Below, in pieces: positions 48,055 through 64,000 of a stretch of DNA of 64,000 nucleotides. Both the position numbers and the translations under genes were made by a program. The DNA is from Prolixibacteraceae bacterium (GTDB taxonomy: Bacteria > Bacteroidota > Bacteroidia > Bacteroidales > Prolixibacteraceae). Where the stretch lies: assembly GCA_028683385.1 (NCBI GenBank), contig JAQUIJ010000012.1, forward strand, positions 124,001 to 188,000, read 5' to 3'. Under the pieces are notes generated by a model. It was given only the letters and a program-made list of their open reading frames with translations. It had not been told where the DNA came from and did no database searches. Position 1 is the stretch's first letter. Every line of letters begins with the position of its first letter.

Positions 48055-51000
48055 ATGTCGAAAGAAAACAAGTTTAAAGAATTTTTTGCAACGAGCTGGG
48101 CTATTGATAACCGGACAAGCGTTTATGTACTTGCGGTCCTGATATCGATACTCGGTATGATGAATTACTATTTTATCCCGAAAGAACAGTTCCCACAGGT
48201 AGTAATTCCATATATCATTGTAAGTACTCCATATCCGGGAACTTCTCCCGAAGATATTGAAAACCTGGTTACCCGTCCGATCGAAAAACAGTTGAAATCG
48301 ATCTCGGATGTGAAGAAGATAACCAGTAACTCAGTTCCCGATTTCTCTTCAATTATCGTTGAGTTTGACCCTAATTTGTCGATCGAAACGGCTAAGCAGC
48401 GCGTTCGCGATGCTGTTGACAAATCGAAAAGTGATCTTCCGACTGACTTGCCTTCGGATCCTTCGATTATGGACGTTGATATTTCCGCGATGCCGGTGAT
48501 GTACCTCAATATTTCCGGAAACTATGATCTGGATAAATTGAAACATTATGCAGAAATTGCTCAGGATAAAATTGAAGGCCTAAAGGAAATTACCCGCGTT
48601 GATATTGTTGGTGCGCTGGATCGGGAAATCCAGGTGAATTGCGACATTTTCAAGATGCAGGCAGCAAAAGTTACTTTCAGCAACATTGAGCAGGCTGTTG
48701 CCATGGAAAACATGACCATTTCGGGCGGTACTTTAGTCAATAATGGTGTCCGTAATACGGTCCGGATTAAAGGTCAGTTTACTGATGTTCAGACCCTGAA
48801 AGATATTGTAGTTCATTCTTCAAGCGGCGCGTTTGTTAAATTAAGCGATATTGCTGATATAAATGATAGCTTTAAAGAACAGGAAAGTTTTGCCCGTTTG
48901 GATGGTAAAAATGTAATTACCCTGAATGTGATCAAAAAGAACGGTGCAAACCTGTTGGACGCTTCGGATCAGATTGTACAAATTGTTGCGGATCTGAAAG
49001 ATCGTGAGTTTCCCAAAGGCATGGATGTTACCATTACTGGCGACCAGAGCCGCCATACCCGAAATACTCTGGAAGAATTGAATAACACAATCATCATCGG
49101 ATTTATTCTGGTAACCATTGTGCTGATGTTCTTTATGGGCTTTACCAACGCTTTCTTTGTTGGTTTGTCGGTGCCACTCTCTATTTTTGTGGCTTACCTG
49201 ATCATTCCTGGGCTAGGCTTTACGATGAACATGATCGTGATGTTCGCCTTCATCTTTGCCCTCGGGATTGTGGTTGACGATGCCATTGTGGTCATCGAAA
49301 ATACACACCGTCTGCACAAGTTCAATCCCGATATTAATATAGCGGCCAAGAAGGCGGCAGGTGAGGTCTTTCTTCCAATTTTATCAGGAACATTAACAAC
49401 ATTGGCTCCATTCTTTCCATTGGCCTTCTGGCCGGGAATTGTTGGTCAGTTTATGCATTATTTGCCGGTAACATTGATTATTACGCTATTCGCTTCACTC
49501 TTTGTTGCTTATGTCTTTAATCCTGTGTTCGCCGTTTCGTTTATGAAACACGAGTACGATCACGAATTTCAGGAAGGAAGCGGTTGGAAAAAGATTAGGA
49601 ATATCATGATCATTATGCTGGTATTTGCCGCAGTATTTTATGCTACGAAAGTTTATGGTCTGGCCAACTTCATGGTTTTTGCAGTACTGATGATCTTGTT
49701 TTTCCATTTTATCCTCAAAAAAATGATCACAACCTTTCAAGAGAAAACATGGCCATGGATCATGAGTGTTTATGAAAAGCAGTTGCGGATGATTCTGAAA
49801 GGTGGACGTCCGGTAATGATTTTGGGTGGAATGATTGGACTTTTCTTTTTAACCATCTTCATTACAGGTGCAGTTAAACCTACGGTATTGTTCTTTCCGG
49901 ATAGTAACCCCAATAATATCTATGTCTATATAAAAATGCCGGGAGGTACCGATCAGAAAGTAACTGACAGTATCACAAGTATTGCGGAACAACGTGTTTA
50001 TAAGGTTATAGGTAAAAATAATCCTGACGTTGAATCTATTATTTCAAACGTAACTATTGGAGCGGAAGAACAAGGATTTGCATCAACAGGAACTCCGTTT
50101 AACAAGGGAAAAGTATCAATCAATTTTGTGGAACATAAATTCCGCACAACTGGAGTCTCAACAACTGAATACCTGGAAATTCTTAGAAAAGAGATGAAAG
50201 ATATCCCTGGAGCTGAAATTTCGGTTGACAAAGACCAAAATGGACCACCAACAGGTAAACCAATTAACATTGAAATTACCAGCGAAAATCTGGAGGTTCT
50301 GATTGCTGATGCGAATGCTTTCCGCGATCACATTAAGTCGATGAATATTCCGGGAGTTGAAGAATTAAAATCTGATTTTGAGATGAATTCTCCTGAAATC
50401 ATTGTTCAGATTGATCGTGACCGGGCTCAGCGTTTGGGAATTTCTACCGGACAGATTGGGCTTGAAATCCGTACTGCTTTGTATGGAAAAGAAATCTCGA
50501 AATTTAAGCAAGATGAAGATGAATATCCAATCATGCTTCGGTACGAAAAGGTTACCCGCGATAACATTGATGCTTTGGTGAACCTGATGATTACCTATCG
50601 GGACATGAATTCGGGTATGTTACGCAGTGTTCCGTTGTCGACCGTGGCTAAAATTGATTATACATCATCTTACGCCGGAATCAAACGACTTGATCAAAAG
50701 CGCGTGATCACAGTTTATTCAAATGTTCTTTCAGGTTATTCGGCAAATGATATTGTTCCAATTATTAAGCGTGAAGCTAAGAATTTCACGTTCCATGAAG
50801 GTACTAATATCAAACTGACGGGAGAGCAGGACGATCAGGCAGAAACAGCTACATTCCTTTTGAAAGCGATGATTATTGCCCTTGGAGCAATATTCTTTAT
50901 CCTGATAACTCAGTTTGGCTCGGTTAGTAAATCACTTATTATTCTAAGTGAGGTTATTTTCAGCATCATAGGTGTTTTACTGGGAGTTATGATTTTTCAC

Positions 51001-51447
51001 ATGGATTTGGTGATCATGATGACCGGACTTGGAGTTGTTGCATTGGGAGGTATTGTCGTCCGAAACGGAATTCTGATTGTCGAATTTATAGATTCGAAGA
51101 AAGCAGAAGGTATGCCAACGCGACGTGCAATTATCGAAGGTGGAAAAACCAGAATGACACCCGTAATTCTGACCGCCACAGCAACCATGCTTGGCTTGGT
51201 CCCGTTGGCTGTGGGTATGAATATTAACTTCACAACAATGTTTACTGAATTGAACCCACACATTTACTTTGGTGGCGACAATGTGGCATTTTGGGGACCA
51301 TTGGCCTGGTCAATCATATTCGGATTGAGCTTTGCTACATTCCTAACCCTGATGTTTGTCCCTGCTTTGTACGAGCTGGATTATACCATCAAACTGAAGA
51401 TGAAAAAACGCAAAAATCTGAAACGAATTAAAGCATTAAACAAATAG
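48055..51447 (+). CDS. RND efflux permease, HAE1 family
   Basis: A 1130-residue AcrB-type inner-membrane proton antiporter, last gene of the TetR operon. The relay motif GIVVDDAIVVIENTHRLHKF is at about 407-426 and ALGAIFFILITQFGSVSKSL near 945. It is about 100 residues longer than AcrB, mostly from an additional membrane/loop stretch at about 500-580 (IRNIMIIMLVFAAVFYATKV, FAVLMILFFHFIL). Porter domains lie at about 35-330 and 600-880. HAE1 pumps export amphiphilic drugs, bile acids or lipids; the actual substrate is unknown. Confidence 0.94.
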   Translation: MSKENKFKEFFATSWAIDNRTSVYVLAVLISILGMMNYYFIPKEQFPQVVIPYIIVSTPYPGTSPEDIENLVTRPIEKQLKSISDVKKITSNSVPDFSSIIVEFDPNLSIETAKQRVRDAVDKSKSDLPTDLPSDPSIMDVDISAMPVMYLNISGNYDLDKLKHYAEIAQDKIEGLKEITRVDIVGALDREIQVNCDIFKMQAAKVTFSNIEQAVAMENMTISGGTLVNNGVRNTVRIKGQFTDVQTLKDIVVHSSSGAFVKLSDIADINDSFKEQESFARLDGKNVITLNVIKKNGANLLDASDQIVQIVADLKDREFPKGMDVTITGDQSRHTRNTLEELNNTIIIGFILVTIVLMFFMGFTNAFFVGLSVPLSIFVAYLIIPGLGFTMNMIVMFAFIFALGIVVDDAIVVIENTHRLHKFNPDINIAAKKAAGEVFLPILSGTLTTLAPFFPLAFWPGIVGQFMHYLPVTLIITLFASLFVAYVFNPVFAVSFMKHEYDHEFQEGSGWKKIRNIMIIMLVFAAVFYATKVYGLANFMVFAVLMILFFHFILKKMITTFQEKTWPWIMSVYEKQLRMILKGGRPVMILGGMIGLFFLTIFITGAVKPTVLFFPDSNPNNIYVYIKMPGGTDQKVTDSITSIAEQRVYKVIGKNNPDVESIISNVTIGAEEQGFASTGTPFNKGKVSINFVEHKFRTTGVSTTEYLEILRKEMKDIPGAEISVDKDQNGPPTGKPINIEITSENLEVLIADANAFRDHIKSMNIPGVEELKSDFEMNSPEIIVQIDRDRAQRLGISTGQIGLEIRTALYGKEISKFKQDEDEYPIMLRYEKVTRDNIDALVNLMITYRDMNSGMLRSVPLSTVAKIDYTSSYAGIKRLDQKRVITVYSNVLSGYSANDIVPIIKREAKNFTFHEGTNIKLTGEQDDQAETATFLLKAMIIALGAIFFILITQFGSVSKSLIILSEVIFSIIGVLLGVMIFHMDLVIMMTGLGVVALGGIVVRNGILIVEFIDSKKAEGMPTRRAIIEGGKTRMTPVILTATATMLGLVPLAVGMNINFTTMFTELNPHIYFGGDNVAFWGPLAWSIIFGLSFATFLTLMFVPALYELDYTIKLKMKKRKNLKRIKALNK

Positions 51448-51471
51448 TAAGTTTTTGGATAAATAAATAGG

Positions 51472-51505
51472 ATAGGGGCTGGCTCATCAAGAGTTAAGCC
51501 CCTAT
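51472..51505 (+). terminator. Terminator of the TetR-RND operon
   Basis: ATAGGGGCT (51472-51480) pairs with AGCCCCTAT (51497-51505), followed by TTTTATTT. It ends right before the convergent aldo/keto reductase stop and may serve both. Confidence 0.85.
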
Positions 51506-51507
51506 TT

Positions 51508-52653
51508 TTATTTTACTTTTGGCCGATACAATTCTGTATGTGTTTCCTGAATCAGGTCAACCAACGGAATATTTGCCGGACAACGGGATAAATCTATCCT
51601 TTTCAAATTCTCTTCTGTAGGGAAATTGCCGGGGAACCAATGGTCTTTTTCCTGAAACATGTTGTACCGGTATAGCCCGAAGTCTTTCATGTCGTAGCAT
51701 TTCCAGAGTGTTCTGAAGCGAAGTATTTCAGGAATATTCAATCCTGAAGGATCATTCTCCATTACGTATGCATCAAAGTCGGAATAAGGATCGAGTTGTT
51801 TTTGTTCGTCAAGAACTTGTTTGATCTGGTCATCTTCAGGAGAAAAAGGCGACGGTGCCGGGAAAATACCGTTGAGGTGGTCGAATTGCGCTGTTACGGG
51901 CAATCCAAAGGTTAAAGTATGAATAGCCGAATGGCTCAGGCAAAAACGCGCATTCCATTGAATAGGATGAAGAGGTGCCGTAAATTCAGTCAGTTTTTTC
52001 GATGGATGGAAAAGCTGACCTCCTTTGTCGTTGGGCGAAATAATAAACACGCCCATGTCTTTCGATTCAGCAAGATCAATGGCTGGTTTATTTCGCTGGA
52101 AAAAATAATAATAATGCAGATTTACGAAGTCGAAAAGGTCTGTTTCTATGGCTTTCAGAATAACATCAAGCGGTGCATGAGTACTGAATCCGACATGTTT
52201 GATGATTCCCTCTTCTTTCATTTTCAGCAATTCTTCAACCGGACCACCTTTGGCACATGAGGTTTCCAGAATACTCATGGTATTAATTCCATGCCAGGCA
52301 TAAAAATCGAAATAGTCGGTTTTCAAAGCCTTTAATTGACTGAGAACCATTTTTCGTGTGTCTTCGGCTGTTTTCGGATTCCCTTTTGTCATTAAAAAGT
52401 ACGAATCACGTTTTAGTTTAAGCTCATCATTCAGAACACGTCCATAAGCATGCTCACTTTTGCCATATCCATGGGCGGTTTCAATTAAGTTGATTCCTTG
52501 TTCCATGGCTTTTTGAACGGTATCACGACATTGATCAAGTGTATCCTGAGGAATTTCCTCGCGAGGTTCAACTCCGGTATGTTTAAAGCGCATACCACCT
52601 AATGTGATAACACTCACCATTTTGTTTGTTTTACCGAAGCGGCGATATTCCAT
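51508..52653 (-). CDS. Aldo/keto reductase, variant active site
   Basis: I start at ATG 52653 (381 residues, MEYRRFGKTNKMVSVITLGG), the usual family start; ATGs at 52689 and 52734 would add an unlike N-terminal extension. The TIM barrel has the tetrad motif GINLIETAHGYGKSE with Glu where the canonical DTAxxYG has Asp, the tyrosine in HGYG, the lysine in YFLMTKGNPK and the histidine in FYAWHGINT. The C-terminal 90 residues resemble the ferredoxin-like extension found in some family members, but the cysteine ligands of a 4Fe-4S cluster are missing except C in SRCPANI. Substrate unknown; it is convergent with the efflux operon. Confidence 0.87.
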   Translation of the reverse strand: MEYRRFGKTNKMVSVITLGGMRFKHTGVEPREEIPQDTLDQCRDTVQKAMEQGINLIETAHGYGKSEHAYGRVLNDELKLKRDSYFLMTKGNPKTAEDTRKMVLSQLKALKTDYFDFYAWHGINTMSILETSCAKGGPVEELLKMKEEGIIKHVGFSTHAPLDVILKAIETDLFDFVNLHYYYFFQRNKPAIDLAESKDMGVFIISPNDKGGQLFHPSKKLTEFTAPLHPIQWNARFCLSHSAIHTLTFGLPVTAQFDHLNGIFPAPSPFSPEDDQIKQVLDEQKQLDPYSDFDAYVMENDPSGLNIPEILRFRTLWKCYDMKDFGLYRYNMFQEKDHWFPGNFPTEENLKRIDLSRCPANIPLVDLIQETHTELYRPKVK

Positions 52654-52841
52654 TTTAGGACGGTATAAAGAAAAAGTATTAAAATTCATGTTCAGTATTT
52701 GAAAAGAATTAGTGAAAATAAATATTCTCAGCAATCAATCGTGATAGATTAATTATTGAGGTGGCAAAGTTCATACGGAATTAACCCACTGGAGAGGAAA
52801 GGGTTCAGGATAAATTGAAAATTGATTGGTTTGCCGTTTAA

Positions 52842-53528
52842 TTAGTTTCGTGTTTGCTGCATTAAAGCTTCTGCAACGATTAAATCTGTTGGATTGGTGA
52901 TTTTTATATTTTCACGGTTTCCTTCAACAAGATATATCGGGAATCCTGCCTTTTCAGTCACTGATGCATCGTCGGTAAATGCAGGATCGAATTCCTGTTT
53001 AAAAGCTTCCAGAATTTGCTCGCTTCGGAAAGTTTGCGGTGTTTGAACACTAAAATACTGGCTTCTGTCCACCGAAATATTCAGATTGCCTTCTTGTTTT
53101 CGAAGCGATTCGTTGACTGGTAATACAGGAATTGCATTTCCGCTTTTTTGAGCCGTTTCGAGACATCTTTCGAGGGTTTCCTTACTCACCAGAGGTCTGA
53201 CTCCATCGTGAATAAAAACGATTCCCGCTTCTGTAATTTGACTCAGTCCGTTTTTTACCGAATGAAAGCGGGTTTTGCCTCCGGAAACAACTTGATGTGC
53301 CAGGGAAAATGAATGCTTTAGACATAAGCCTTTCCAGAACGGCTGTTGATCTTCAGGAAGTACAAGTATGATTTTGCTTTCAGGATAGAAGTCGTAAAAA
53401 ACCTGGATGGTGTGCATCAGAACAGGCTTTCCGCACAACTCCAGAAACTGTTTCGGAATTTGGGTGCCCATTCGGCTTCCCGAGCCTCCGGCAACAATAA
53501 TGACATAGTTTTTTATACGTTCTTCCAT
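52842..53528 (-). CDS. ispD: 2-C-methyl-D-erythritol 4-phosphate cytidylyltransferase
   Basis: A 228-residue MEP-pathway enzyme making CDP-ME for isoprenoid synthesis. The nucleotide-binding start VIIVAGGSGSRMGTQIPKQF (about 10-29), the conserved VFIHDGVRPLVS (about 103-114), the DRSQYFSVQTPQTFRSEQIL region and the C-terminal DDASVTEKAGFPIYLVEGNR are all present. Located as a single gene on the minus strand between an aldo/keto reductase and tRNA-Val. Confidence 0.95.
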   Translation of the reverse strand: MEERIKNYVIIVAGGSGSRMGTQIPKQFLELCGKPVLMHTIQVFYDFYPESKIILVLPEDQQPFWKGLCLKHSFSLAHQVVSGGKTRFHSVKNGLSQITEAGIVFIHDGVRPLVSKETLERCLETAQKSGNAIPVLPVNESLRKQEGNLNISVDRSQYFSVQTPQTFRSEQILEAFKQEFDPAFTDDASVTEKAGFPIYLVEGNRENIKITNPTDLIVAEALMQQTRN

Positions 53529-53613
53529 TACTGCAAAAGTACTATTTCATTGCGAATTCCGGGATGTACTAAAGTTGTTTCTTTATTTTGTTGCAATTCT
53601 GTGGGCTAATCCT

Positions 53614-53673
53614 ATTCTTAAAAGCCATAAATCCGGAGAAGCATAGCTTACCGGATTTATGGCTTTTAAGAAT
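53614..53673. terminator. Perfect 23 bp-stem terminator between ispD and tRNA-Val
   Basis: The arms at 53614-53636 (ATTCTTAAAAGCCATAAATCC plus GG) and 53651-53673 are exactly complementary over 23 bp; the 14 nt loop contains a further AAGC/GCTT pair. It follows the tRNA-Val 3' end by 8 bp on the minus strand. A stem of this length and perfection is unusual for a plain terminator. Confidence 0.85.
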
Positions 53674-53680
53674 TTCTATG

Positions 53681-53755
53681 TGGGCGGTACTGGATTCGAA
53701 CCAGTGACCCCTACCCTGTCAAGGTAATGCTCTAAACCAACTGAGCTAACAGCCC
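53681..53755 (-). tRNA. tRNA-Val, anticodon GAC
   Basis: A 75 nt tRNA. D-arm GCTCAGTTGGTTTAGAGC; anticodon stem TTACC/GGTAG with loop TTGACAG gives GAC (T-G wobble at 27-43); T-arm ACTGG TTCGAAT CCAGT; discriminator A at 53681. The acceptor GGGCTGT against ACCGCCC leaves one mismatch (U5-C68). CCA is not encoded. Confidence 0.93.
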
Positions 53756-53815
53756 TTTTCGAGCCACAAAAATATAAATTTTTTACAATGTTTCTTTATT
53801 GGTGAATAAATCGGC

Positions 53816-53883
53816 TAAATTTGAGATTTTAGAATCAGAAAACTATTTTTGTTTTTTAATGTATTGGGTTATTCGTGGGTTAA
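53816..53883 (+). promoter_or_regulatory. Promoter and phased repeats before the transmembrane regulator
   Basis: TAAATTTG (53816-53823) is a perfect -7 box. About 40-60 bp downstream, in the predicted leader, GGGTTAT (53866-53872) and GGGTTAA (53877-53883) repeat with an exact 11 bp spacing. Read on the minus strand they are TTAACCCACGAATAACCC, nearly the same as the pair before the glycosyltransferase operon. Position downstream of the start suggests autorepression. Confidence 0.6.
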
Positions 53884-53927
53884 TTTTCCTAATAAATGAT
53901 TGGTTTTGAGTAATTAAAATATTTGGA

Positions 53928-56486
53928 ATGAACAGAGAAATTCGTTGCATTGGTATTCTGTTTTGCTTGTTTTGTTCAGTTTTGGCAATTAGTGCTAAAG
54001 CTATAGACAATACAACCGGCAAATTATACGATGAAACCATCTTCGTAATTTCGAATTTCTCAGGTGTAGATGCTAATCTCAACGAAACCCGCGGCATTAA
54101 AGAACTTCTCGATCAAAACATTGGTGGGTTCAGGTTTTATCTTGAATGGGAAAAGCAGCAGAATCAACTCATGATTAAAAAGGCCGACGGAACTTCCATT
54201 TCGCTTAGGCAGACTATGCACGAAATCAAGAACTATTTGGAGTACAAGCCAGATAAAATACTGACTCTTTTTCTTGATTTCAGCACAAACATTAACGAGT
54301 TAACCGATATCTTTCAGGAATTGGGTATCAATCAGTATTTGTATACCTATGATGCAAAGGAAGGCTGGGCTCCTGTAAAAACCATGATTGAAGAAAATAA
54401 ACGGCTGGTTGTTTTTTCAATGCAGGAGCACCGCAACAGTCCGGATTGGCTTCATTATGTGTGGAACCATGCTGTTGAACCTTATTTTTCGATTTGGGAA
54501 GCTCCGGTTTTTAAAGGCGAATTTCTTAAAGGCGACCCTAAAAATAGCCTGTTGATTTATAACGATTACAACTTCCCAAGGAAAGGTGAAAACATAAACA
54601 ATGCAAAATACGAAACCAATCAAAATCCTTACCTGATTGAGCACATCAAAAATACCTGGACAAATACTGGCAAAACACCTAATTTCATTATGCTTGATCG
54701 TTATGAAAACTGGGTTGTTGGTATAGTTTCCTATTTAAAAGGATTTAAAACGATTAAGGGGACGATCACATACAATACACAGATTCTTGATTACGTGAAC
54801 TGGGATAAAATAGGTAGTCTTACCAGCGGAAAATACTGTTTCCCTGTTGGCCCGGGTGATAACCTGACATTGACACCTAAAAGTCCCGGATTTCGGTTTA
54901 CTCCGGAAACCGTCACATTTAACGAGCCCAGTCAAAGCATTATTCAGCATTTTGTAGCTACGTCGATGGAAATTACGGACAATCTGGAAGGTCATTACAC
55001 TTTTGCCAAAGAAGGCCATGATTTTAGTATTAATGGATTTGATGGAAAGGCGTATAACGTTAAGTTCGAGAACGACTCTGTCCGATCGACCGTTGCGCTT
55101 TTTGATGAAAAAAAATATATCATTCTCCCGGGTGCCGAATCATTCAAAATTCGGGATCACGATTTTACTGTGGCAGCCTGGGTGAAGATTAAAGAGTATT
55201 TGCCAAATAAGGAAGATTACTGCATCCTTGGAACAAAGACGAGTTCTTATCAACAGGGGATTCACCTCTTGATAAGAAAACAGAAGCCATATTTTGGATT
55301 TTTCAATAACGACTTACAGGGGAAAACAAATCTTGAGGCCGGTAAATGGTATCATTTGGTTTGGAGATACAATAAATTAAGCGGTGAGCAAGCCATATTC
55401 CTGAATGGAAAGCTGGATAGTCGTTCACTTGGGCATCCGGCATATAAAGGTCGCGATAATCTGTACATTGGACTGGCCGGTTTCAGTAAGGCTTCCTATA
55501 TGTACGGAGCTATCGATAACCTTAGTATCTGGTCGAGAGCGCTTGGCGAAGAAGAAGTTTGGGGAATGAGCAAAGATGTGATTGAAATTGTTCCTGTAAA
55601 GAATGTTTTAATTCTTTATCCAATTTTATCCAGAAGCCTCATTGCGCTGGTGATACTCTTTTTAATGGTGTTTGCCTACTTTAAAATCCCTTTCCGGAAA
55701 CTGAAGAAACATCCAACGACTGCCGATAAAATCAGGAGTATTGAGAATGCCATTTTTCATAAGCCCGAAACAAATTACATTCAGCTTTTTGGTGATTTTA
55801 AAGTACTTGACAAGAACGGTATTGACATCAGCAGTCAGTTTACTCCCAAGCTGAAACAGCTTTTCCTGATTATTCTTTTATATTCTCAACGCAATAAAAA
55901 TGGTATTTCAACGAAAGAGCTGACCGATATTCTTTGGTCGGGTCATTCGTCTCAAAGCGCCAAAAACAGCCGTGGCGTCACCATCCGAAAATTGCGTCTG
56001 ATCATCGAATCACTCGATTCTGTTCAGATCAATTTTCAAATCGACCGCTGGTCAATGGCTTTTGACGGTAATGTGTACTGCGATTACGTGGAGTGTTTAA
56101 AACTGCTGAAGCGGGAAAAAATTCACGATACCGATTTTAACCTGAATTTCTATCACATCATTCAGGAAGGTGAACTATTTAAAGGTGAATCGTACGACTG
56201 GCTCGACGATTTCAAAGGCTTTGTCGGGAACAATATTGTTGATATTCTCCTGAAATTTATCAATGAACTAACTGTTGAAAGCGATAATGAGTTAATCCTG
56301 AAGTTGACTGACCGTATTCTGGTGACTGATCCGGTAAACGATCAGGCATTGGCCTACAAACTAAAAGTTTTGATCAAACAGAACAATTCTAATCTGGCTC
56401 GTTATACTTTTGATCGCTTTTGCCTACTCTATGAAGAGCTTTATGGCGAAAAATTCTCGATGAAATTTGAGGAATTAATTGCCTGA
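53928..56486 (+). CDS. Transmembrane one-component regulator: PLC-like, LamG-like, SARP-type winged helix
   Basis: An 852-residue protein with an N-terminal signal sequence (MNREIRCIGILFCLFCSVLA). Residues about 28-270 resemble a phosphatidylinositol-specific phospholipase C barrel (LLDQNIGGFRFYLEWEKQQN; ILTLFLDFSTN) but at the place of the usual catalytic His the sequence reads ISNFSGVD. About 350-550 is a LamG/concanavalin-like sandwich (FTVAAWVKIKEYLPNKEDYC, WYHLVWRYNKLSGEQAIFLN, IDNLSIWSRALGEEEVWGM). One membrane helix follows (about 562-584, SRSLIALVILFLMVFAYF), then a cytoplasmic winged helix (about 614-710, IQLFGDFKVLDKNGIDIS; TKELTDILWSG; SRGVTIRKLRLII) and a BTAD-like helical domain (about 715-850). 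I infer that sugar or lipid binding outside controls DNA binding inside. Confidence 0.8.
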   Translation: MNREIRCIGILFCLFCSVLAISAKAIDNTTGKLYDETIFVISNFSGVDANLNETRGIKELLDQNIGGFRFYLEWEKQQNQLMIKKADGTSISLRQTMHEIKNYLEYKPDKILTLFLDFSTNINELTDIFQELGINQYLYTYDAKEGWAPVKTMIEENKRLVVFSMQEHRNSPDWLHYVWNHAVEPYFSIWEAPVFKGEFLKGDPKNSLLIYNDYNFPRKGENINNAKYETNQNPYLIEHIKNTWTNTGKTPNFIMLDRYENWVVGIVSYLKGFKTIKGTITYNTQILDYVNWDKIGSLTSGKYCFPVGPGDNLTLTPKSPGFRFTPETVTFNEPSQSIIQHFVATSMEITDNLEGHYTFAKEGHDFSINGFDGKAYNVKFENDSVRSTVALFDEKKYIILPGAESFKIRDHDFTVAAWVKIKEYLPNKEDYCILGTKTSSYQQGIHLLIRKQKPYFGFFNNDLQGKTNLEAGKWYHLVWRYNKLSGEQAIFLNGKLDSRSLGHPAYKGRDNLYIGLAGFSKASYMYGAIDNLSIWSRALGEEEVWGMSKDVIEIVPVKNVLILYPILSRSLIALVILFLMVFAYFKIPFRKLKKHPTTADKIRSIENAIFHKPETNYIQLFGDFKVLDKNGIDISSQFTPKLKQLFLIILLYSQRNKNGISTKELTDILWSGHSSQSAKNSRGVTIRKLRLIIESLDSVQINFQIDRWSMAFDGNVYCDYVECLKLLKREKIHDTDFNLNFYHIIQEGELFKGESYDWLDDFKGFVGNNIVDILLKFINELTVESDNELILKLTDRILVTDPVNDQALAYKLKVLIKQNNSNLARYTFDRFCLLYEELYGEKFSMKFEELIA

Positions 56487-56723
56487 GATAAAATATTTTT
56501 TTAGCAGGGTTAATTTTAATTAAAAATCAATTATTCCGCTAAAAATCAATGATTTTATCATTTTTTAATAGCCTTTTTAGGGCTAATATTAACCTGAAAT
56601 TAACCTTGCCTTAACCCGCCCGTAAACACTAGCTAAAGCCTCACTAATTGGTCGATATTACATTTGTACAAAGATTCTAATTCCGGTATTCCCGGGAATA
56701 GAGTCTGTCAAAACGATTATTTT
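56487..56723 (+). promoter_or_regulatory. Promoter of the cytochrome-SUMF operon with three phased TTAACC repeats
   Basis: TTAACC lies at 56589-56594, 56600-56605 and 56611-56616, each exactly 11 bp from the next, one DNA turn apart. A perfect -7 box TACATTTG is at 56659-56666 with no good -33 element, as expected for an activator-dependent promoter; the repeats then lie about 57-84 bp upstream of the start. A single GGGTTAA occurs at 56507-56513. The site pattern fits a SARP-fold regulator, and one is encoded immediately upstream. Confidence 0.65.
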
Positions 56724-58250
56724 ATGAAGATTTGGAATTCTGTTCGTAGTTTGTTTAGCGGCAAGAGAGCTTTTGTGGTAGTGATTTCAATAGGATTGAT
56801 TATTGGGGTGGTTTTCATGTTTGCCGGTAGCAAAGCCGTACATTATACATCAACCGACGAATATTGTTTTTCATGTCACGTTCATCCGCATGCTGAACAG
56901 AGCTGGAAACTTTCGCCTCACTACGATAACAAATCCGGAATAATTGTTCATTGTGTCGAATGTCATCTTCCGCCGGAAGGACATGGAATGTTATTTGCTA
57001 AAGCCAAACATGGAGCCAAAGATGTTTATGGCTACTTGTTTAAAGATTCTGCCGACTATAAATGGGCTGCAAAGCGAAAACTTGAAATGGCCAGGAAATA
57101 TACGTATGTTGAATCCTGCGTAAAATGTCACAAAAACTTATTTCCAAAAACACTTACAGTTGACGGAGAAAATGCCCATTTGAATTATCTGACAAGTAAG
57201 GAAGAAGTCACTTGCCTCAATTGCCATCTGAATGTTGGTCATTTTGACCCCAACGCCAAGCACGAACACGACGCCAACTTTGGAGTGAATATTACTCAGA
57301 ATACACAAATTTATGCAGAAGCGACCCCGGTTACCAGTTTTGCCAACTTCACCGAAAAAGTTCCTGGAACCGGTTTGAGTTTCGATATGGTAGCTATACC
57401 TGCAGGCCAGTTCATTATGGGAAGTTCGAAAAAAGAGCCTTTTCATAAACCTGATGAAAGTCCGATGCATCCGGTAAAAGTGTCGCGATTTTTTATGGCA
57501 AAAATAGAAGTAAGCTGGGACGAATACCTGGAGTTCTTTAAAGCAACATCGTCGCAGGGTCGCAAAGAAGCTGAAGTAAATAAAGATGTTGATGCAATCT
57601 CAGGCCCAACACCTCCGTGGGGTGCTCCTGACCAGGGATGGGGAAAAGGCTCGCGTCCGGCCATTACAATGACCTGGAAAGCAGCAAATACATATTGCCA
57701 GTGGCTATCGAAAGTTACCGGTAAAAAGTACAGGCTTCCAACAGAAGCTGAATGGGAATATGCAGCCAGAGGCGGAACCAAAACACCGTATTTTTTTGCC
57801 GGTAGTCCGAAAGACTATACTTCTGAAGGATTTTTCAAAAAGATATTTGGCGCCGATACCACGACAATTAGTTCTTATGTAGCTTATAAAGCGAACAGCC
57901 TGAGTCAGACCGTTGAACCAGCTTCAGTAAAGGCAAATGCTTTTGGCCTGAAGAACATGTTGGGCAATGTGTATGAATTCTGCTCCGACTATTATTCTCC
58001 CACGGCTTATGCTGCCTATAAAAAGGGAGCTGTTAATCCGAAGGGACCCAAAAGAGGGAAGGAGCATGTAATCAGGGGAGGATCTTTTAAAAGTGATGCC
58101 CGTGATGTACGGAGCGCCGCACGCGATTTTACCAAAACCACAGAATGGTTGGTTACCGATCCACAAATGCCTAAAAGTGTTTGGTGGTATTCCGACTGTG
58201 TTGACATTGGTTTTAGGGTAGTTTGTGAAGTAGATGAAAATGTAAAATAG
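56724..58250 (+). CDS. NapC/NirT-type tetraheme cytochrome fused to a SUMF domain
   Basis: From ATG 56724 the product has 508 residues (an ATG-like upstream codon at 56664 would put the membrane anchor too far in). A signal-anchor helix (about 15-37, AFVVVISIGLIIGVVFMFAG) precedes a NapC/NrfH-like domain with four CxxCH sites: CFSCH (48-52), CVECH (77-81), CVKCH (132-136) and CLNCH (164-168). From about 210 on is a SUMF/formylglycine-generating-like domain (FDMVAIPAGQFIMGSSKKEP, PVKVSRFFMAKIEVSWDEYL, YRLPTEAEWEYAARGGTKTP, HVIRGGSFKSDARDVRSAAR). The FGE cysteines are absent from the GGSF segment. A quinol-linked electron route to an unknown periplasmic reaction is inferred. Confidence 0.9.
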   Translation: MKIWNSVRSLFSGKRAFVVVISIGLIIGVVFMFAGSKAVHYTSTDEYCFSCHVHPHAEQSWKLSPHYDNKSGIIVHCVECHLPPEGHGMLFAKAKHGAKDVYGYLFKDSADYKWAAKRKLEMARKYTYVESCVKCHKNLFPKTLTVDGENAHLNYLTSKEEVTCLNCHLNVGHFDPNAKHEHDANFGVNITQNTQIYAEATPVTSFANFTEKVPGTGLSFDMVAIPAGQFIMGSSKKEPFHKPDESPMHPVKVSRFFMAKIEVSWDEYLEFFKATSSQGRKEAEVNKDVDAISGPTPPWGAPDQGWGKGSRPAITMTWKAANTYCQWLSKVTGKKYRLPTEAEWEYAARGGTKTPYFFAGSPKDYTSEGFFKKIFGADTTTISSYVAYKANSLSQTVEPASVKANAFGLKNMLGNVYEFCSDYYSPTAYAAYKKGAVNPKGPKRGKEHVIRGGSFKSDARDVRSAARDFTKTTEWLVTDPQMPKSVWWYSDCVDIGFRVVCEVDENVK

Positions 58251-58263
58251 AAAACACATCCAG

Positions 58264-59610
58264 ATGGAAAATAAGATAGGTTTAAACAGAAGACGGTTCC
58301 TGGAGTCAACTGCGCTGGCAAGCATTGGATTATTAGGTGCAAGTGTCGCCATTTCGGGATGCAAAAAGGCAAATAATGCCAAAATACTTGGATTGCCACC
58401 CATTTTAAAGGCTGCGCCAAAAGGTAAAAAATTACGCGCTGGATTAGTTGGTGTTGGCAATCGTGGAACCGGGGCTGCTTTAAATTTTATTAGCTCAGGA
58501 CCAGATTTGCATATTGTTGCTTTGGCTGATGTCTTTCAGGACAAAGTTGATGCAGGTCGCGAACGGTTTGCGAAACTAAAAATGGAAATTCCTGCCGAAA
58601 ATTGCTTTTCAGGATTTGATGCCTACAAAAAATTGATGGCACTGCCCGATGTCGATGTGGTTATTCTGGCCACTCCACCGCAGTTCAGACCTGAGCATTT
58701 GAAGGAAGCCGTTTTGCAGAATAAGCATGTTTTTATGGAAAAGCCTGTGGCTGTCGATCCCGTTGGAATTCGGTCGATCATTGCCAGTGGCAAAAAGGCC
58801 GAGGCCATTGGTCTGAATATCGTTACAGGTACTCAGCGACGCCATCAGGAAGATTACATTGAAACCTATAAACAAGTGGCCAATGGAGCCATTGGAAAAC
58901 TTGTTTCGGCCAGGGCATTCTGGAATCAGAACCACGTTTGGTTCCGTACCCGCGAGGAAGGTTGGGACGACATGACTTATATGGTTCGTAACTGGAACAA
59001 TTTCTGCTGGTTATGTGGCGATCATATTTTAGATACACACATTCACAACATCGATGTGATCAACTGGTTTGTAGGCCGTCCACCGGTAAGCGCCGTTGGC
59101 TATGGAGGCCGTGCACGACGAATAACCGGTGATCAATATGACTTTTTCAGTGTCGATTTCGACTACGGAGATGGCTTTTTCTCGCACAGCATGTGTCGTG
59201 AAATCGACAATTGCGCCAACAATACAGGCGAATTCATTATGGGAACCGAAGGATATACCAATTGCGTGAACACCATTTGGAATTTAGACGGATCGGTAAA
59301 GTGGAAGTTTGAATATCCGAAAGATGAAAATGGGAACGAGACCAGTTCGTTGAAAATTCCGGCTTACGTGCAGGAACACATGCATTTGGTTCATTCCATT
59401 CGCACAGGAGAATATGTAAATGAGGCTGAAACTACTGCAAATTCGACGCTTACTGCAATCATGGGAAGAACGTCGGCTTACACCGGTAAAAAAGTAACCT
59501 GGGAAGAAATTTTTAAATCCGACATGGATCTTGGGCCAGAGAAAATTGAATTTGGTCCGGTTGACATGCAGTTTGAAGTGCCAGTGCCGGGAACTGCACA
59601 CAAAGCATAG
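58264..59610 (+). CDS. Tat-exported Gfo/Idh/MocA-family oxidoreductase (lipoprotein)
   Basis: A 448-residue protein. The N-terminus has a twin-arginine motif (NRRRFLEST) and a lipobox-like SGC with C33, so it is folded before export and probably lipid-anchored. The Rossmann domain starts RAGLVGVGNRGTGAALNFIS (about 59-78); the family lysine is in HVFMEKPVAVDP, and the catalytic His candidates are in DTHIHNIDVINW. Export with a bound NAD(P) cofactor is known for such Tat members, e.g. in glycoside 3-dehydrogenation or epimerisation. It is 13 bp after the cytochrome-SUMF gene and should work with it; that cytochrome could accept its electrons (inference). Confidence 0.9.
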   Translation: MENKIGLNRRRFLESTALASIGLLGASVAISGCKKANNAKILGLPPILKAAPKGKKLRAGLVGVGNRGTGAALNFISSGPDLHIVALADVFQDKVDAGRERFAKLKMEIPAENCFSGFDAYKKLMALPDVDVVILATPPQFRPEHLKEAVLQNKHVFMEKPVAVDPVGIRSIIASGKKAEAIGLNIVTGTQRRHQEDYIETYKQVANGAIGKLVSARAFWNQNHVWFRTREEGWDDMTYMVRNWNNFCWLCGDHILDTHIHNIDVINWFVGRPPVSAVGYGGRARRITGDQYDFFSVDFDYGDGFFSHSMCREIDNCANNTGEFIMGTEGYTNCVNTIWNLDGSVKWKFEYPKDENGNETSSLKIPAYVQEHMHLVHSIRTGEYVNEAETTANSTLTAIMGRTSAYTGKKVTWEEIFKSDMDLGPEKIEFGPVDMQFEVPVPGTAHKA

Positions 59611-59698
59611 ATCGAGTAAAATAAATTAATACAATAGATTTCAATACACACGTGCTTTTTCATCCTATTAACCGGGATGCTTTTCTAAACCAACCAAC

Positions 59699-59738
59699 AC
59701 TGCCAGCAAGGGAGAATTAATCCTCCTGAGCTGGCAGT
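59699..59738 (+). terminator. Terminator of the cytochrome-SUMF/Gfo operon
   Basis: ACTGCCAGC (59699-59707) pairs with GCTGGCAGT (59730-59738), followed by CTTTTAAT. It ends transcription before the next regulated promoter. Confidence 0.8.
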
Positions 59739-59805
59739 CTTTTAATATCAGGCGCGATTGAGCTTCCTTTGTAAAATGACATTTTCAAACTTAAAAACTA
59801 TATCT

Positions 59806-59842
59806 TTAACCCACAATTAACCCTGATTAGACTGTAAGTTTC
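59806..59842 (+). promoter_or_regulatory. Two phased TTAACCC repeats and -7-like box before the glycosyltransferase operon
   Basis: TTAACCC at 59806-59812 and 59817-59823 repeat at exactly 11 bp. TAAGTTTC (59835-59842) is 7/8 to TAnnTTTG and 11 bp after the second repeat. The pair TTAACCCACAATTAACCC matches the pair in front of the transmembrane regulator at 16 of 18 positions. Confidence 0.6.
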
Positions 59843-59882
59843 TTTCAGGAATAAAAAGAAAACTGCCAAAACAAACAAACCT

Positions 59883-60806
59883 ATGTTTTCACTCATAATT
59901 CCGGTTTATAATGAGGAGGGGCTGATCGAGGAATTGGTAGCTCGTTCGGTTAAAGCGCTTGAGTCGTTTACTACAAACTATGAAATTTTATTTGTTAACG
60001 ATGGCAGTGTTGACTCCACCCTCCGGAAGCTGATTGAAGCACGAAAACAATACCCAAGAATAAAGATTGTTGACCTGTCCAGAAATTTCGGACACCAGGC
60101 GGCTTTTACTGCCGGGCTGGAAATGGCTTTGGGAAACTATGTGGCCATGATGGATGGTGATCTTCAGGATCCACCTGAACTACTTGCGGAGATGTACCGA
60201 ATGATTAATGAAGATGGATTTGACATTGTTAGTGGAAAGCGGCAAGGGCGTAAAGGGAAGCGACTGAGAGTTGCCACTAATTTATTCCATGCATTTTTCA
60301 AAAAAGTATCGGGAATCGAGGATATGGAAAATTCGGGTAATTTTTCAGTCATGAACCGTTCGGCAGTGAATGCCATTATTCAGATGAAAGAAACGATCAG
60401 GTACTTACCTGGATTGCGTTCGTTTATTGGATTTAGGCAGGGCTATGTTGAATATATTCGTGAAGCCCGTTTAGAAGGAGAACCCAAAATGACTCTTGGA
60501 AAATTAATTGTTTTGGGCGCCGACGCTATTTTCTCCTTTTCAAAGTTTCCGATTAAGGTTTGCCTTTTTCTGGGTACCATCGGAACCATCGTTTTTTTCA
60601 TTGCCGGAATCTATGCTTTGCTTGGTAAAATTCTTGGATTTGCACTGTTTGGTTGGTCTTCAACGGTTTTAAGCATTTATTTCCTCGGATCGATTCAGCT
60701 CATTTTTCTGGGAGTTGTGGGCGAATATGTGTATCGCATCTATAAAGAATCTCAAAACCGTCCTATCTATCTGGTCAAGAAATTTTACGATGCCGACGCT
60801 AAATAA
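59883..60806 (+). CDS. Glycosyltransferase family 2, polyprenyl-phosphate type
   Basis: A 307-residue DPM1/GtrB/ArnC-like enzyme. The GT-A domain starts MFSLIIPVYNEEGLIEELVA, with nucleotide motif FVNDGSVDSTLRKL, metal motif DGDLQDPPELLAEM (about 92-105) and acceptor motif SGKRQGRKGKRLRVATNLFH. Two C-terminal helices (about 233-260 and 270-292) anchor it in the inner membrane. Such enzymes transfer a sugar from UDP/GDP to undecaprenyl phosphate. Its TAA stop overlaps the ATG of the next, GT39-like gene by one base, a classic donor-maker/transferase pair. Confidence 0.92.
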   Translation: MFSLIIPVYNEEGLIEELVARSVKALESFTTNYEILFVNDGSVDSTLRKLIEARKQYPRIKIVDLSRNFGHQAAFTAGLEMALGNYVAMMDGDLQDPPELLAEMYRMINEDGFDIVSGKRQGRKGKRLRVATNLFHAFFKKVSGIEDMENSGNFSVMNRSAVNAIIQMKETIRYLPGLRSFIGFRQGYVEYIREARLEGEPKMTLGKLIVLGADAIFSFSKFPIKVCLFLGTIGTIVFFIAGIYALLGKILGFALFGWSSTVLSIYFLGSIQLIFLGVVGEYVYRIYKESQNRPIYLVKKFYDADAK

Positions 60807-62884
60807 TGGAAGAAAGAAAACTGAAGATAATTTTTATAATTCTCGCATTGGCAATGCTGTTTGCAATGCTAATGATCAGTCGTGATGCCGGCATTTCGGG
60901 CGACGAGGAAGTTCATTACAAGCAATCTGAAATGGTATATCGCTATTTCAGTAGTCTGGGTGCCGACCAATCCTCACTAAATACACCACAAACTCACCTA
61001 AAATACTACGGACAATCGTTCGATAATTTGGTTACCATCTTCATTCACTGGTTTGGCATTGAAGATATATACACTTTCAGGCATCTGATGAGCAGTATCT
61101 CTGGTTGGCTTACCATTCTGGTAACGGCTTTATTTGCCGCATACATTTCCGGATTTGGAGCAGCAATTCTGGTATTGCTCCTGTTCGCGGTTTCGCCCAC
61201 ATTCCTGGGTCATGCCCAAAATAACCTGAAAGATATTCCTTTTGCTTTAGCATACATCTCAAGTATTTATTATTCGCTTCGCGTTGTTTTTACTGAAGGT
61301 AGACCAGCCAGAAAAGACGTTTTACTGTTGATTTTAAGCATCGCTTTATCTATCGGAATTCGTGCCGGTGGAATTCTGGTAATTTTTTACCTCGGCTTTT
61401 TCATGTTCCTGAAACTTATTTTGGATGTAATTCATCGGAAAATAACTGATTTCGAAAGCATAAAATGGCAACTGATTCTATTTTTCGGAATCTCTATTTC
61501 TGGATATTTGTTGTCATTGATTTTTTGGCCTTATGCGTTGCAAAATCCGATACTCAATCCTTGGAAATCGTATCAACTGATGACTCATTTCCCAACAACT
61601 GTGAGGCAAATCTTTGAAGGAAATTTCGACTGGTCCGATTTTCACCCTTGGTACTATTTGCCTAAATACATGGCGATTACTATTCCAATTGTTGTTTTTG
61701 CCGGGATATTGCTGTTTTTTGTGACTATTAGGAAACAGTATTCCGACAAACAGAAAATTCAATTGCTTTTGGTGGGTTTCAGTATTCTGTTCCCAGTTGT
61801 TTTTGTTTTACTGAAACACTCTAATTTATATGGTTCGTGGCGTCATTTTTTGTTTGTTTACCCCGGAATTATTCTCATCGCTGCTCTTGGATTTTATGCC
61901 CTTTTTAATCGCTATAAACAACATATTGTTAGGCTTTTAGCCATTGTTTTATTCCTGATGTTGGCAATTCATCCCGTTCGGTTTATGGCAGCAAACCACC
62001 CGTATTATTACCTGTACTACAATCAGTTTACTGGTGGACTGAAAGGTGCTTACGGAAATTACGAAACCGATTATTATTACCACAGCATGCGTCAGGGAGC
62101 CGAATGGCTTCAGGATTACTTGAAAAGCAAGTCCAATAATACCAAAATTGTTGTTGGCGCAAATTTTCCTTGCCAATGGTTTTTCAGAAATGATAAAGAC
62201 ATTGATTTTGTATATTTTCCCTGGCAAAAGCGTAGCGAGTATAATTGGGATTACGCCATTGTTGCAAACAGCTATATTCCACCATTCCAATTAAAAAATA
62301 AAATCTGGCCGCCATCCAATCCAATTCATACTATCTTTGCTGACGGAATCCCGATTTGTGCAGTCATTGAGAGGGTTACAAAAACTGATTTTGAAGGTAT
62401 TCAGGAACAGAACAAGGGCGATAACATTAAATCTGCGTTGTTATTTGAAAATGCAGTGAGGTTTGACCCGCAAAATGAGTTGCTCTGCTATAAATTTGCC
62501 GAAGTTTTACTGGCAACAGGGAAGGTTGTTGAAGCTGATAAGATGCTGGCTAAGTGTTTGGAAATTAATCCGGATTATGAAATGGCTCTGATTTTATTGG
62601 GAGACGAAGCACTGAAGAGTGGGGACGTTCAAAAAGCTTCCAACTTTTATGAACGTACGATTCAGGCAAACCGAAAGTATTATGGCGCTTACCCAAAGCT
62701 GGCTGGAATTTATGCTGAAACCAATGTTCTGAAGGCTCGTCGGATTCTGAAAGATTGTCTGAAACTGAACTCAAGATACAAACCAGCCTTGGAAGCTTTG
62801 GCTGATACCTACCGGAAATCGAATCCGGAGATTGCGCGGAAATATGATGAAATGAGCCAGAAAGTTAGTAACTCAAAAAATTAA
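60806..62884 (+). CDS. GT39-like membrane glycosyltransferase with C-terminal TPRs
   Basis: A 692-residue GT-C-type protein. After a first helix (LKIIFIILALAMLFAMLMIS) the first luminal loop has SRDAGISGDEEVHYKQSEMV, carrying the acidic motif expected of polyprenyl-sugar-dependent transferases (PMT/ArnT family). About ten membrane helices extend to residue 410, a periplasmic domain lies at about 415-530, and residues about 545-690 are tetratricopeptide repeats (FAEVLLATGKVVEADKMLAK, LILLGDEALKSGDVQKASNF). It presumably transfers the sugar made by the upstream GT2 enzyme to a periplasmic acceptor, with the TPRs recognising the acceptor (inference). Confidence 0.86.
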   Translation: MEERKLKIIFIILALAMLFAMLMISRDAGISGDEEVHYKQSEMVYRYFSSLGADQSSLNTPQTHLKYYGQSFDNLVTIFIHWFGIEDIYTFRHLMSSISGWLTILVTALFAAYISGFGAAILVLLLFAVSPTFLGHAQNNLKDIPFALAYISSIYYSLRVVFTEGRPARKDVLLLILSIALSIGIRAGGILVIFYLGFFMFLKLILDVIHRKITDFESIKWQLILFFGISISGYLLSLIFWPYALQNPILNPWKSYQLMTHFPTTVRQIFEGNFDWSDFHPWYYLPKYMAITIPIVVFAGILLFFVTIRKQYSDKQKIQLLLVGFSILFPVVFVLLKHSNLYGSWRHFLFVYPGIILIAALGFYALFNRYKQHIVRLLAIVLFLMLAIHPVRFMAANHPYYYLYYNQFTGGLKGAYGNYETDYYYHSMRQGAEWLQDYLKSKSNNTKIVVGANFPCQWFFRNDKDIDFVYFPWQKRSEYNWDYAIVANSYIPPFQLKNKIWPPSNPIHTIFADGIPICAVIERVTKTDFEGIQEQNKGDNIKSALLFENAVRFDPQNELLCYKFAEVLLATGKVVEADKMLAKCLEINPDYEMALILLGDEALKSGDVQKASNFYERTIQANRKYYGAYPKLAGIYAETNVLKARRILKDCLKLNSRYKPALEALADTYRKSNPEIARKYDEMSQKVSNSKN

Positions 62885-62976
62885 AATTAGTAATCTGGCG
62901 AATTCCATATGGCAAAAACAAATTATAAACATATGAACTGATACTGAAATTAAAATAACTTTTAAAATTTGAAGCA

Positions 62977-63234
62977 ATGAAAAAATCACTTATGTTGGCT
63001 CTTGTAGGCCTAATGTTTGTTGGTGGAATGACAAAATTGTATGCTCAGGAAGATTCGGCTAAGGTTGCCGAAGAACCAAAAGATACTATTTCGATTGACA
63101 CGATGGACCCTGTTTATTACGAAGATGAAGCAACCAAGGAATCATCAAATACGATGACTTATGCCATTATTGGCGGAATTGTTGTGATTGGTGGTGCGGC
63201 TTTCTTTTACATTAAAAAGAAAAAAAGTAATTAA
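62977..63234 (+). CDS. Small signal-peptide plus single-helix membrane protein
   Basis: An 85-residue protein: signal peptide MKKSLMLALVGLMFVGGMTK (cut near YAQED), an acidic segment (AKVAEEPKDTISIDTMDPVY), then one membrane helix (MTYAIIGGIVVIGGAAFFYI) and a KKKKSN tail. It lies 92 bp after the glycosyltransferase pair and before a terminator. No family recognised; it could be an accessory or acceptor subunit, or unrelated. Confidence 0.72.
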   Translation: MKKSLMLALVGLMFVGGMTKLYAQEDSAKVAEEPKDTISIDTMDPVYYEDEATKESSNTMTYAIIGGIVVIGGAAFFYIKKKKSN

Positions 63235-63253
63235 TTGGTAAACACCATAAATG

Positions 63254-63282
63254 AAGCTCTTCGGAAACGAGGAGCTTTTTTT
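63254..63282 (+). terminator. Terminator after the small membrane protein
   Basis: AAGCTC..TCG pairs with CGA..GAGCTT around GAAA (63254-63276), then TTTTTTT. It follows the 85-residue gene by 20 bp. Confidence 0.82.
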
Positions 63283-63407
63283 GTGCTTATTCTGTTTGTG
63301 AGTTCAGATCGTCAATCAGTGTCGGCAAATTTTAACTTTCGGGGTTTTGGTTTTAAAATTTTATTTCAGTAACCTGCTTAATTTCTTTTTATTAAATGCG
63401 TACATTT

Positions 63408-63423
63408 TACTTATTAGTAAGTA
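63408..63423 (+). promoter_or_regulatory. TetR-type operator before the partial TetR gene
   Basis: TACTTATTAGTAAGTA is a near-perfect 16 bp palindrome (seven of eight base pairs symmetric), the classic size and form of a TetR-family half-site pair. It ends 28 bp before the ATG at 63452, in the likely promoter, and suggests autoregulation. Confidence 0.72.
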
Positions 63424-63451
63424 TATTTGTCTCGAATAAAATAAATAAGTG

Positions 63452-64000
63452 ATGTCGGTAACACGCGAAAAAATACTGGAACTTGCTGAAGAATTGATAC
63501 TCAACAAGGGATATAATGGGTTCAGCTATCAGGACATCTCGACTGTAATGGGAATTAAAAATGCAGCAGTGCATTATTATTTTCCCAGTAAAGATAACCT
63601 TGGTGTCAGCATTCTTAAAACCAATGTTCAGCGATTCGAGGAAATGGTTGAGAACATGCAAAACCGCAATTTTGACGAATGGCAGCAGTTGGAATCGTTC
63701 ATGAAAATATACCTGAAAAGCAACCGCGAAAACAAGATTTGTCTTATTGGCTCGCTTGGAACTGATATTAATACCCTGAGTAACCCGATGCGCGTTGAGT
63801 TGCAGAAAATGGTTGACCGGATTATCAACTGGCTCACATCGGTGCTGCAAAGTGGTCGTGAGAAAGGACTTTTCCAGTTCAATATTCCGGCACGTGATCA
63901 GGCTCTTTCTATTTTGTCATCGCTGGTTGCCGGTCTTCAACTGGCACGTATCCTGAACAAATCAGATTTTAAGAACATACATCAATCCATTTGGGAAGGC
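63452..64000 (+). CDS. TetR-family transcriptional regulator (partial)
   Basis: From ATG 63452 the frame stays open for 183 codons to the right edge. The helix-turn-helix is at about 5-50: REKILELAEELILNKGYNGF, SYQDISTVMGIKNAAVHYYF and PSKDNLGVSIL, typical TetR/AcrR family. The ligand domain begins normally (FMKIYLKSNRENKICLIGSL; GLFQFNIPARDQALSILSSL). The target genes are unknown but may lie beyond the window; the operator in front suggests autoregulation. The C-terminus is missing because of the window edge. Confidence 0.93.
   Translation, partial: MSVTREKILELAEELILNKGYNGFSYQDISTVMGIKNAAVHYYFPSKDNLGVSILKTNVQRFEEMVENMQNRNFDEWQQLESFMKIYLKSNRENKICLIGSLGTDINTLSNPMRVELQKMVDRIINWLTSVLQSGREKGLFQFNIPARDQALSILSSLVAGLQLARILNKSDFKNIHQSIWEG

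Follow-up and report, generated by a model that had tools for sequence, protein, structure and literature searches.

To our knowledge, few membrane one-component regulators of Bacteroidota beyond SusR and HTCS have assigned targets. Here we analyze a predicted membrane regulator and the phased direct repeats around its gene in a 64,000-nt stretch of contig JAQUIJ010000012.1 (positions 124,001 to 188,000; Prolixibacteraceae bacterium, assembly GCA_028683385.1), hereafter the window, and compare them with the closest described systems. In ToxR and CadC, the winged helix is N-terminal and the periplasmic domain C-terminal. For the SARP family, the excerpted text of one report gives a rule in which repeats are spaced by 11 or 22 bp and the 3' copy lies 8 bp from the -10 box (PMC10936776), and for SusR the excerpt gives motifs whose two sites are separated by 67 or 77 bp (PMC3878776). 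Papers on BT2160 and BT2158, in the parts available, deal with a SusR-like regulator and glycoside 3-dehydrogenases; they concern a different regulator and serve as context. Among open-licence papers, searched by title and the start of the abstract, these parts did not describe the regulator family or the operator considered below.

Read as a probable membrane-tethered SARP-like regulator, the system is known in kind but not in this form. As in SARP proteins such as AfsR, an OmpR-type winged helix is followed by a further C-terminal domain, and the repeats are one turn apart with the last close to the -7/-10 box, at 9 nt here and at 8 bp in the excerpted SARP rule (PMC10936776), the -7 consensus being different. 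Unlike in SARP proteins, the module is C-terminal (its winged helix covers about 612-706 of the 852 residues), predicted to be membrane-tethered and preceded by a putative periplasmic sensor part; there are six half-sites instead of the two of the afs box, BTAD is not matched by Pfam, and both phylum and promoter consensus differ. Domain order and the lack of a BTAD match by Pfam led us to reject an ordinary SARP. With ToxR and CadC the regulator shares the one-component design, in which a single span would connect a sensor in the periplasm with an OmpR-type winged helix in the cytoplasm, but here the winged helix is C-terminal and an extra domain is present. The SusR-like regulators of Bacteroides are likewise membrane proteins with a periplasmic sensor, a cytoplasmic DNA-binding part, neighbouring carbohydrate genes and direct-repeat operators (PMC3878776, in excerpt); the present system, with its 11-bp-step array, differs from them in operator spacing.

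We consider it probable that the protein, tethered to the membrane, works as a SARP-like one-component activator whose operator at the neighbouring redox operon is oligomeric. This reading draws on the observed sequence, phasing, conservation, rarity and promoter spacing of the repeats, on their covariation with the recognition helix and on the similarity of the winged helix to OmpR-type profiles. The elements concerned are the following.

53928-56486, plus strand: predicted membrane one-component regulator, 852 aa (Pfam, profile alignment, hydropathy)
56589-56649, plus strand: predicted main operator, six 11-bp-phased half-sites TTAACC, TTAACC, TTAACC, GTAAAC, CTAAAG, CTAATT
56659-56666, plus strand: TACATTTG, the predicted -7 box for the cytochrome-SUMF operon, separated from the last half-site by 9 nt
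56724-58250, plus strand: 508-aa fusion of a NapC/NirT-type tetrahaem cytochrome with an FGE/SUMF-like domain; contains four CxxCH motifs
58264-59610, plus strand: 448-aa Gfo/Idh/MocA oxidoreductase; by eye, its N-terminus is lipobox-like and carries a Tat-like RR

The three TTAACC half-sites of the main array start at 56589, 56600 and 56611 on the plus strand, in steps of exactly 11 bp, and the same phase runs on through GTAAAC (56622), CTAAAG (56633) and CTAATT (56644). With six TAA-centred half-sites in all, the array is larger than the three-box site first noted. The box TACATTTG at 56659 is of the Bacteroidota type, for which we take the consensus to be TAnnTTTG. A TAA half-site stands 9 nt from the -7 box in 23 of 27 cytochrome-SUMF promoters when spacings of 7-11 are allowed, one of the 23 (locus L129) being without an array. 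To align these promoters, the last half-site and the -7 box were used as an anchor, which forces the box and the core of that half-site, and where several anchors fitted, the one with the most phased TAA was taken; 21 of 26 neighbourhoods entered the set, after one without a cytochrome-SUMF gene, three without an anchor and one near-identical genome were dropped. Mean information was 1.58 bits in the half-sites, 0.54 in the spacers and 0.42 in the flanks, and half-sites 2-5, on whose TAA cores the anchor imposed nothing, showed those cores without variation. At L129 (genome G098), the cytochrome-SUMF operon lies beside tRNA-Cys, the regulator is not adjacent and no phased array is found upstream; this single natural example fits a joint occurrence of array and regulator.

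Conservation was assessed with and without reference to the letters of the repeat. Scanning window positions 50001-64000 and 29 fetched loci for the pair at one mismatch or less (overlapping pairs counted) gave 51 matches inside the windows of three promoters, namely those of the cytochrome-SUMF gene, the regulator and a downstream GT2 glycosyltransferase, versus 4 in the other 414,463 bp; in our reading, three of these 4 also fall in promoters of this system, e.g., at contig breaks. By promoter, the pair was present in 20/27 cytochrome-SUMF, 9/22 regulator and 7/25 GT2 regions. In the letter-blind test, each upstream region was scored for the period between 6 and 21 that gives the best three-fold repeat, ties being shared; 80 loci of the named genome set yielded 57 regions once 21 loci without a cytochrome-SUMF hit and two partial ones were dropped. 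Period 11 was best in 37.0 of these 57, the runner-up reaching 4.8. The controls gave 7.9/58 upstream of the Gfo/Idh/MocA gene, at most 3.0/40 upstream of the PMT-type gene and 7.9/171 in shuffled sequence; the value upstream of the regulator, 11.2/61, comes from regions partly shared with the divergent operon and is thus no clean control. An earlier set, tested with periods 7-20, had given 42.3/51 (56 regions given, five dropped).

Within the 5.9-Mb genome, the exact pattern TTAACC-N5-TTAACC has three matches, all at this locus (reversed control pattern: two), and TTAACCN{4,6}TTAACC was found three times in the window versus 0.03 expected from dinucleotide shuffles. At one mismatch, the pair has 33 matches, four of them here (control: 92). 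Of the other 29, 26 could be placed at loci; 23 of these lie in open frames of at least 148 codons, and none of the 26 exceeds three phased TAA steps, the main array having six. A triple-half-site pattern with one mismatch matched four times in the genome, both exact matches falling inside the main array (control: seven). The search for further targets in the same genome among the 26 placed pairs left only loci L050, L055 and L059 in short open frames, of which only L059 is array-like, and it is not tied to this regulator. Across 26 relatives, 37 exact matches are listed versus 56 for the reversed control; 18 of the 26 genomes have one, and 24 of the 37 sit in this system's promoters by our tally. 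A chance origin of the repeats was rejected on the whole-genome counts together with the control patterns and regions. The sequence-only reading had described three promoters within 6 kb carrying TTAACC-type direct repeats at 11-bp spacing, with coordinates and spacings that proved right, and had placed operators phased at one helical turn before the oxidoreductase operon; sought upstream of orthologues and across the genome, these are conserved in the former and rare elsewhere, not equally frequent.

The letters of the half-sites differ among lineages: TTAACC prevails in the relatives of the window, mostly TTAAGA in Draconibacterium and Maribellus, and TTAATG or TTAATA in Marinilabiliaceae. 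The covariation set comprised 57 cytochrome-SUMF upstream regions, 54 of them with a TAA triple. Sorted by residue 687 in the recognition helix of the adjacent regulator, the final C of the half-site was found in 66/72 cases with Arg, 2/24 with Ser and 5/66 with Asn. Two regulators of about 44% identity, at loci L179 (titled Cytophagales) and L196, both keep Arg687 and TTAACC. Such covariation would tie the array to the adjacent regulator gene better than position does; it is support and not proof, because the pattern follows clades.

The regulator could be examined in all but four neighbourhoods. By hydropathy, it has a signal peptide or hydrophobic segment at residues 5-23 and a transmembrane helix at 571-589. 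Between them lie a weak TIM-barrel-like match (55-122, seen in 8/18 members) and a LamG/ConA-like domain (395-544, with Laminin_G_3 of Pfam matched in 18/18 members); this N-terminal part is a probable periplasmic sensor. The winged helix (about 612-706) and the C-terminal domain (about 725-852), which is probably helical, both follow the transmembrane helix, and this part is taken to be cytoplasmic. No hidden Markov model (HMM) of Pfam matched it in the 18 members. Aligned by hhalign with 12 OmpR-type domains of the same genome, the winged helix scored 30.9 (E 4.8e-5, probability 68%), compared with 19.3 for the best of 40 column shuffles and at most 21.9 for other domain pairs. Since the Pfam HMMs miss the winged helix, its relation to OmpR-type domains is a distant one. 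Against solved structures, the regulator profile matched over the LamG part only (pentraxins and similar), and the C-terminal part alone gave no match. The SARP AfsR model matched one Parabacteroides homologue weakly across the winged-helix part (E 0.039, far below the model cut-off). BTAD (PF03704) was not matched in any of the 18 members by Pfam/HMMER at E up to 1, a search in which the HMMER filters drop most weak matches, and the genome's only BTAD hit is on another contig. Histidine kinase, receiver and AraC domains were not found by Pfam in the regulator or the 18 members, and the protein does not have the makeup of a hybrid two-component system. The transmembrane regulator with a winged helix that had been claimed between the repeat sites is supported; of the proposed SARP/OmpR fold, the OmpR-type winged helix and the SARP-like character stand, but BTAD is not matched and the domain order is different.

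In the mechanism that we propose, binding, the sign of regulation, oligomerisation and the signal are all inferred. The periplasmic part (LamG/ConA-like, perhaps TIM-barrel-like) would sense a signal, most likely a glycan, and the cytoplasmic half, an OmpR-type winged helix plus a further domain, would act as a SARP-like module. Several protomers may bind side by side, one per 11-bp turn, on the six-half-site array at 56589-56649 and hold RNA polymerase, with the array covering the -33 region and the -7 box 9 nt past the last half-site. Occupancy of the array would then activate the operon of the cytochrome/SUMF fusion and the Gfo/Idh/MocA oxidoreductase. Activation by side-by-side protomers holding polymerase is proposed because the geometry of the array is like the SARP rule. 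The unit proposed to be controlled is a widespread redox operon, consisting of a tetrahaem cytochrome-SUMF-like fusion and a probably secreted Gfo/Idh/MocA enzyme.

Two further promoters carry the pair. The elements at that of the regulator itself are the following.

53680-53755: tRNA-Val gene, divergent from the regulator
53820-53851, plus strand: predicted regulator promoter TTTG-N20-TATTTTTG
53867-53883, minus strand: predicted own-promoter operator pair, inverted relative to the regulator gene (pattern search)

On the minus strand, TTAACC (53878-53883) and ATAACC (53867-53872, one mismatch) are 11 bp apart and, by the predicted promoter, occupy about +11 to +28. Among 23 own promoters scanned, 11 have the pair; it occurs without a matching -7 box at L071, and L065 has the box without the pair. 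In all ten promoters with both, the pair begins exactly 23 nt 3' of the point where the -7 box starts, and in one of them the start codon is found 90 nt further on. Within the genus, 9/14 promoters have the pair at 11 bp, and 11/14 if a 12-bp step is allowed. Since the two half-sites are inverted and lie just past the start site, a bound protein would block transcription, which suggests that the regulator autorepresses its own promoter.

The third promoter belongs to the glycosyltransferase operon downstream.

59801-59822, plus strand: possible third operator, weakly conserved; its TTAACC pair (59806-59822) overlaps TATCTTTA (59801-59808), which is the -7 box predicted for the glycosyltransferase operon
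59883-60806, plus strand: GT2 glycosyltransferase, polyprenyl-phosphate type by resemblance
60806-62884, plus strand: membrane protein of several spans that has TPR repeats and matches the PMT type weakly; it shares one base with the GT2 stop

Here TTAACC stands at 59806 and 59817 on the plus strand, 11 bp apart. The GT2 promoter is perhaps also a target, the third one, weaker than the others and more recent.

An explanation that would leave the membrane protein a bystander is that a different OmpR-family response regulator, encoded elsewhere, binds the main array. We regard this as unlikely, even though OmpR-type regulators also bind direct repeats about one helical turn apart and the genome holds at least 12 Trans_reg_C domains, one of them near a four-step TTAAC-type array. 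The latter is the intergenic array of locus L059 (1480-1517; G000:C42 near 54534), with steps of 11, 10 and 11 bp and 22 nt 5' of TATCTTTG. An OmpR-type response regulator domain lies about 2.3 kb away, and the array is possibly the operator of that regulator. Its position near an OmpR-type regulator means that such repeats are not unique to the membrane regulator studied here, a point against tying the main array to the membrane protein. The confinement of exact pairs to the present locus argues the other way, as does the shift of half-site letters with the recognition helix of the adjacent regulator across lineages. Moreover, the TTAACC pair is found in none of five loci with paralogous cytochrome-SUMF operons whose fetched neighbourhood lacks this regulator. 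In two of these five, period 11 shares the best place, at low scores. The regulator's paralogue in the same genome (L094) shows no period-11 array. Other observations weigh against a membrane-tethered activator reading a conserved array. At one mismatch, the pair is absent from 7/27 cytochrome-SUMF promoters, among which one has the contig start just upstream, one is the operon apart from the regulator (L129) and five retain half-sites in phase, though with weaker letters or a step of 12 bp. Period 11 does not win in about 20 of 57 regions, 3/57 have no TAA triple, 13 of the 37 exact pairs in relatives lie elsewhere, and eight of those genomes have none. The genomes are related, the 51- and 57-region sets have genomes in common, and independence does not hold for most counts. 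The own-promoter pair is missing from 3/14 promoters of the genus and from all eight outside it, the GT2 pair occurs in only the 7/25 promoters given above, and some Parabacteroides/Bacteroidaceae members have no array (L191 and L214 show no run of phased TTA).

The two smaller sites have competitors of their own. The minus-oriented pair at 53867-53883 points toward the divergent tRNA-Val, a gene present in 20 of the 21 neighbourhoods scanned (the remaining one starts at a contig end), and might serve it instead of the regulator. This is very improbable: set against it are the fixed 23-nt spacing to the regulator's -7 box and a distance to the tRNA that varies, in one genome, to 226 nt (L067) from the 110-114 nt of seven others; the pair also lies about 90 nt from the -7-like box of the tRNA, unlike the 9 nt at the cytochrome-SUMF promoter. 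The constant spacing to the regulator promoter led us to reject tRNA-Val as the owner of the pair, and the self-regulation site of the sequence-only reading holds in the genus, as counted above, but not outside it. At the GT2 promoter, the competing account is nearly on a par: the pair would be a chance extension of the -7 box (TATCTTTAA...) and not an operator. The overlapped -7-like box TATCTTTA is kept in genus relatives, most of the 25 GT2 promoters lack the pair, and there is no 9-nt spacing to a downstream -7 box, unlike at the oxidoreductase operon. On the other side, this is one of only three exact pairs in the genome, and in their 18-bp forms it agrees with the own-promoter pair at 16/18 positions, as had been claimed from the letters alone. 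The regulon proposed from these sites is supported for the oxidoreductase operon, with its conserved array, but the glycosyltransferase arm is weaker.

Returning to the proposed membrane-tethered activator, its distribution extends well beyond the window. Most nearer genomes share the gene order regulator, cytochrome-SUMF, Gfo/Idh/MocA, GT2, PMT; in Draconibacterium, Maribellus, Mariniphaga and similar, regulator and oxidoreductase operon are arranged divergently. Regulator homologues (orthologues or paralogues) occur in 74 of 120 family genomes and cytochrome-SUMF homologues in 98 of 120, often two per genome. In Parabacteroides/Bacteroidaceae, phased TTAG/TTAA-type steps lie 3' of the regulator gene; period 11 is best in 8.1 of 14 such regions and nine of them have at least three phased TTA, a fifteenth locus ending at the regulator gene and so falling outside the count. 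In L180, the best repeat after the regulator is a different one. In the two loci examined, the region precedes a Gfo/Idh/MocA - sugar isomerase-like - Gfo operon (L185) or a sugar isomerase-like gene (L180).

We tentatively suggest, as the less likely extension of these findings, that membrane-tethered SARP-like regulators form a family found across Bacteroidota, which recognizes an operator of about six half-sites, phased at one turn, by a simple code, in which residue 687 (Arg versus Ser/Asn) and its helix would set the last bases of the half-site. Members would lie beside secreted Gfo/Idh/MocA redox operons, and the membrane anchor could link array occupancy to receptor clustering; if true, clustering would turn periplasmic ligand binding into a steep, oligomer-dependent switch. 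In this system, the sequence gives access to the regulator, its predicted operator, the geometry of the promoter and a candidate code for specificity, and the set, spanning environmental Prolixibacteraceae to gut Parabacteroides, could point to targets for many unannotated regulators. At L258, L260, L261 and L262, the gene next to relatives of a paralogous membrane regulator, on its 3' side, is Gfo/Idh/MocA-like, and upstream of it a TTACCCC repeat is conserved, for which the best period is 12 bp; the regulator family may pair with Gfo/Idh/MocA-like genes in general.

The distance between the Gfo gene and GT2 is about 1.5-2.1 kb in 12 of the 16 genus loci showing both, and only about 270 bp in the species of the window (59610-59883). 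In L067, this gap holds a second Gfo/Idh/MocA-like gene of 437 aa with a Tat-like start (by eye). Further downstream in the window, positions 62977-63234 encode a protein of 85 aa that begins like a signal peptide; its C-terminal segment matches models of LPXTG-type cell-wall anchors, which is odd for a member of Bacteroidota.

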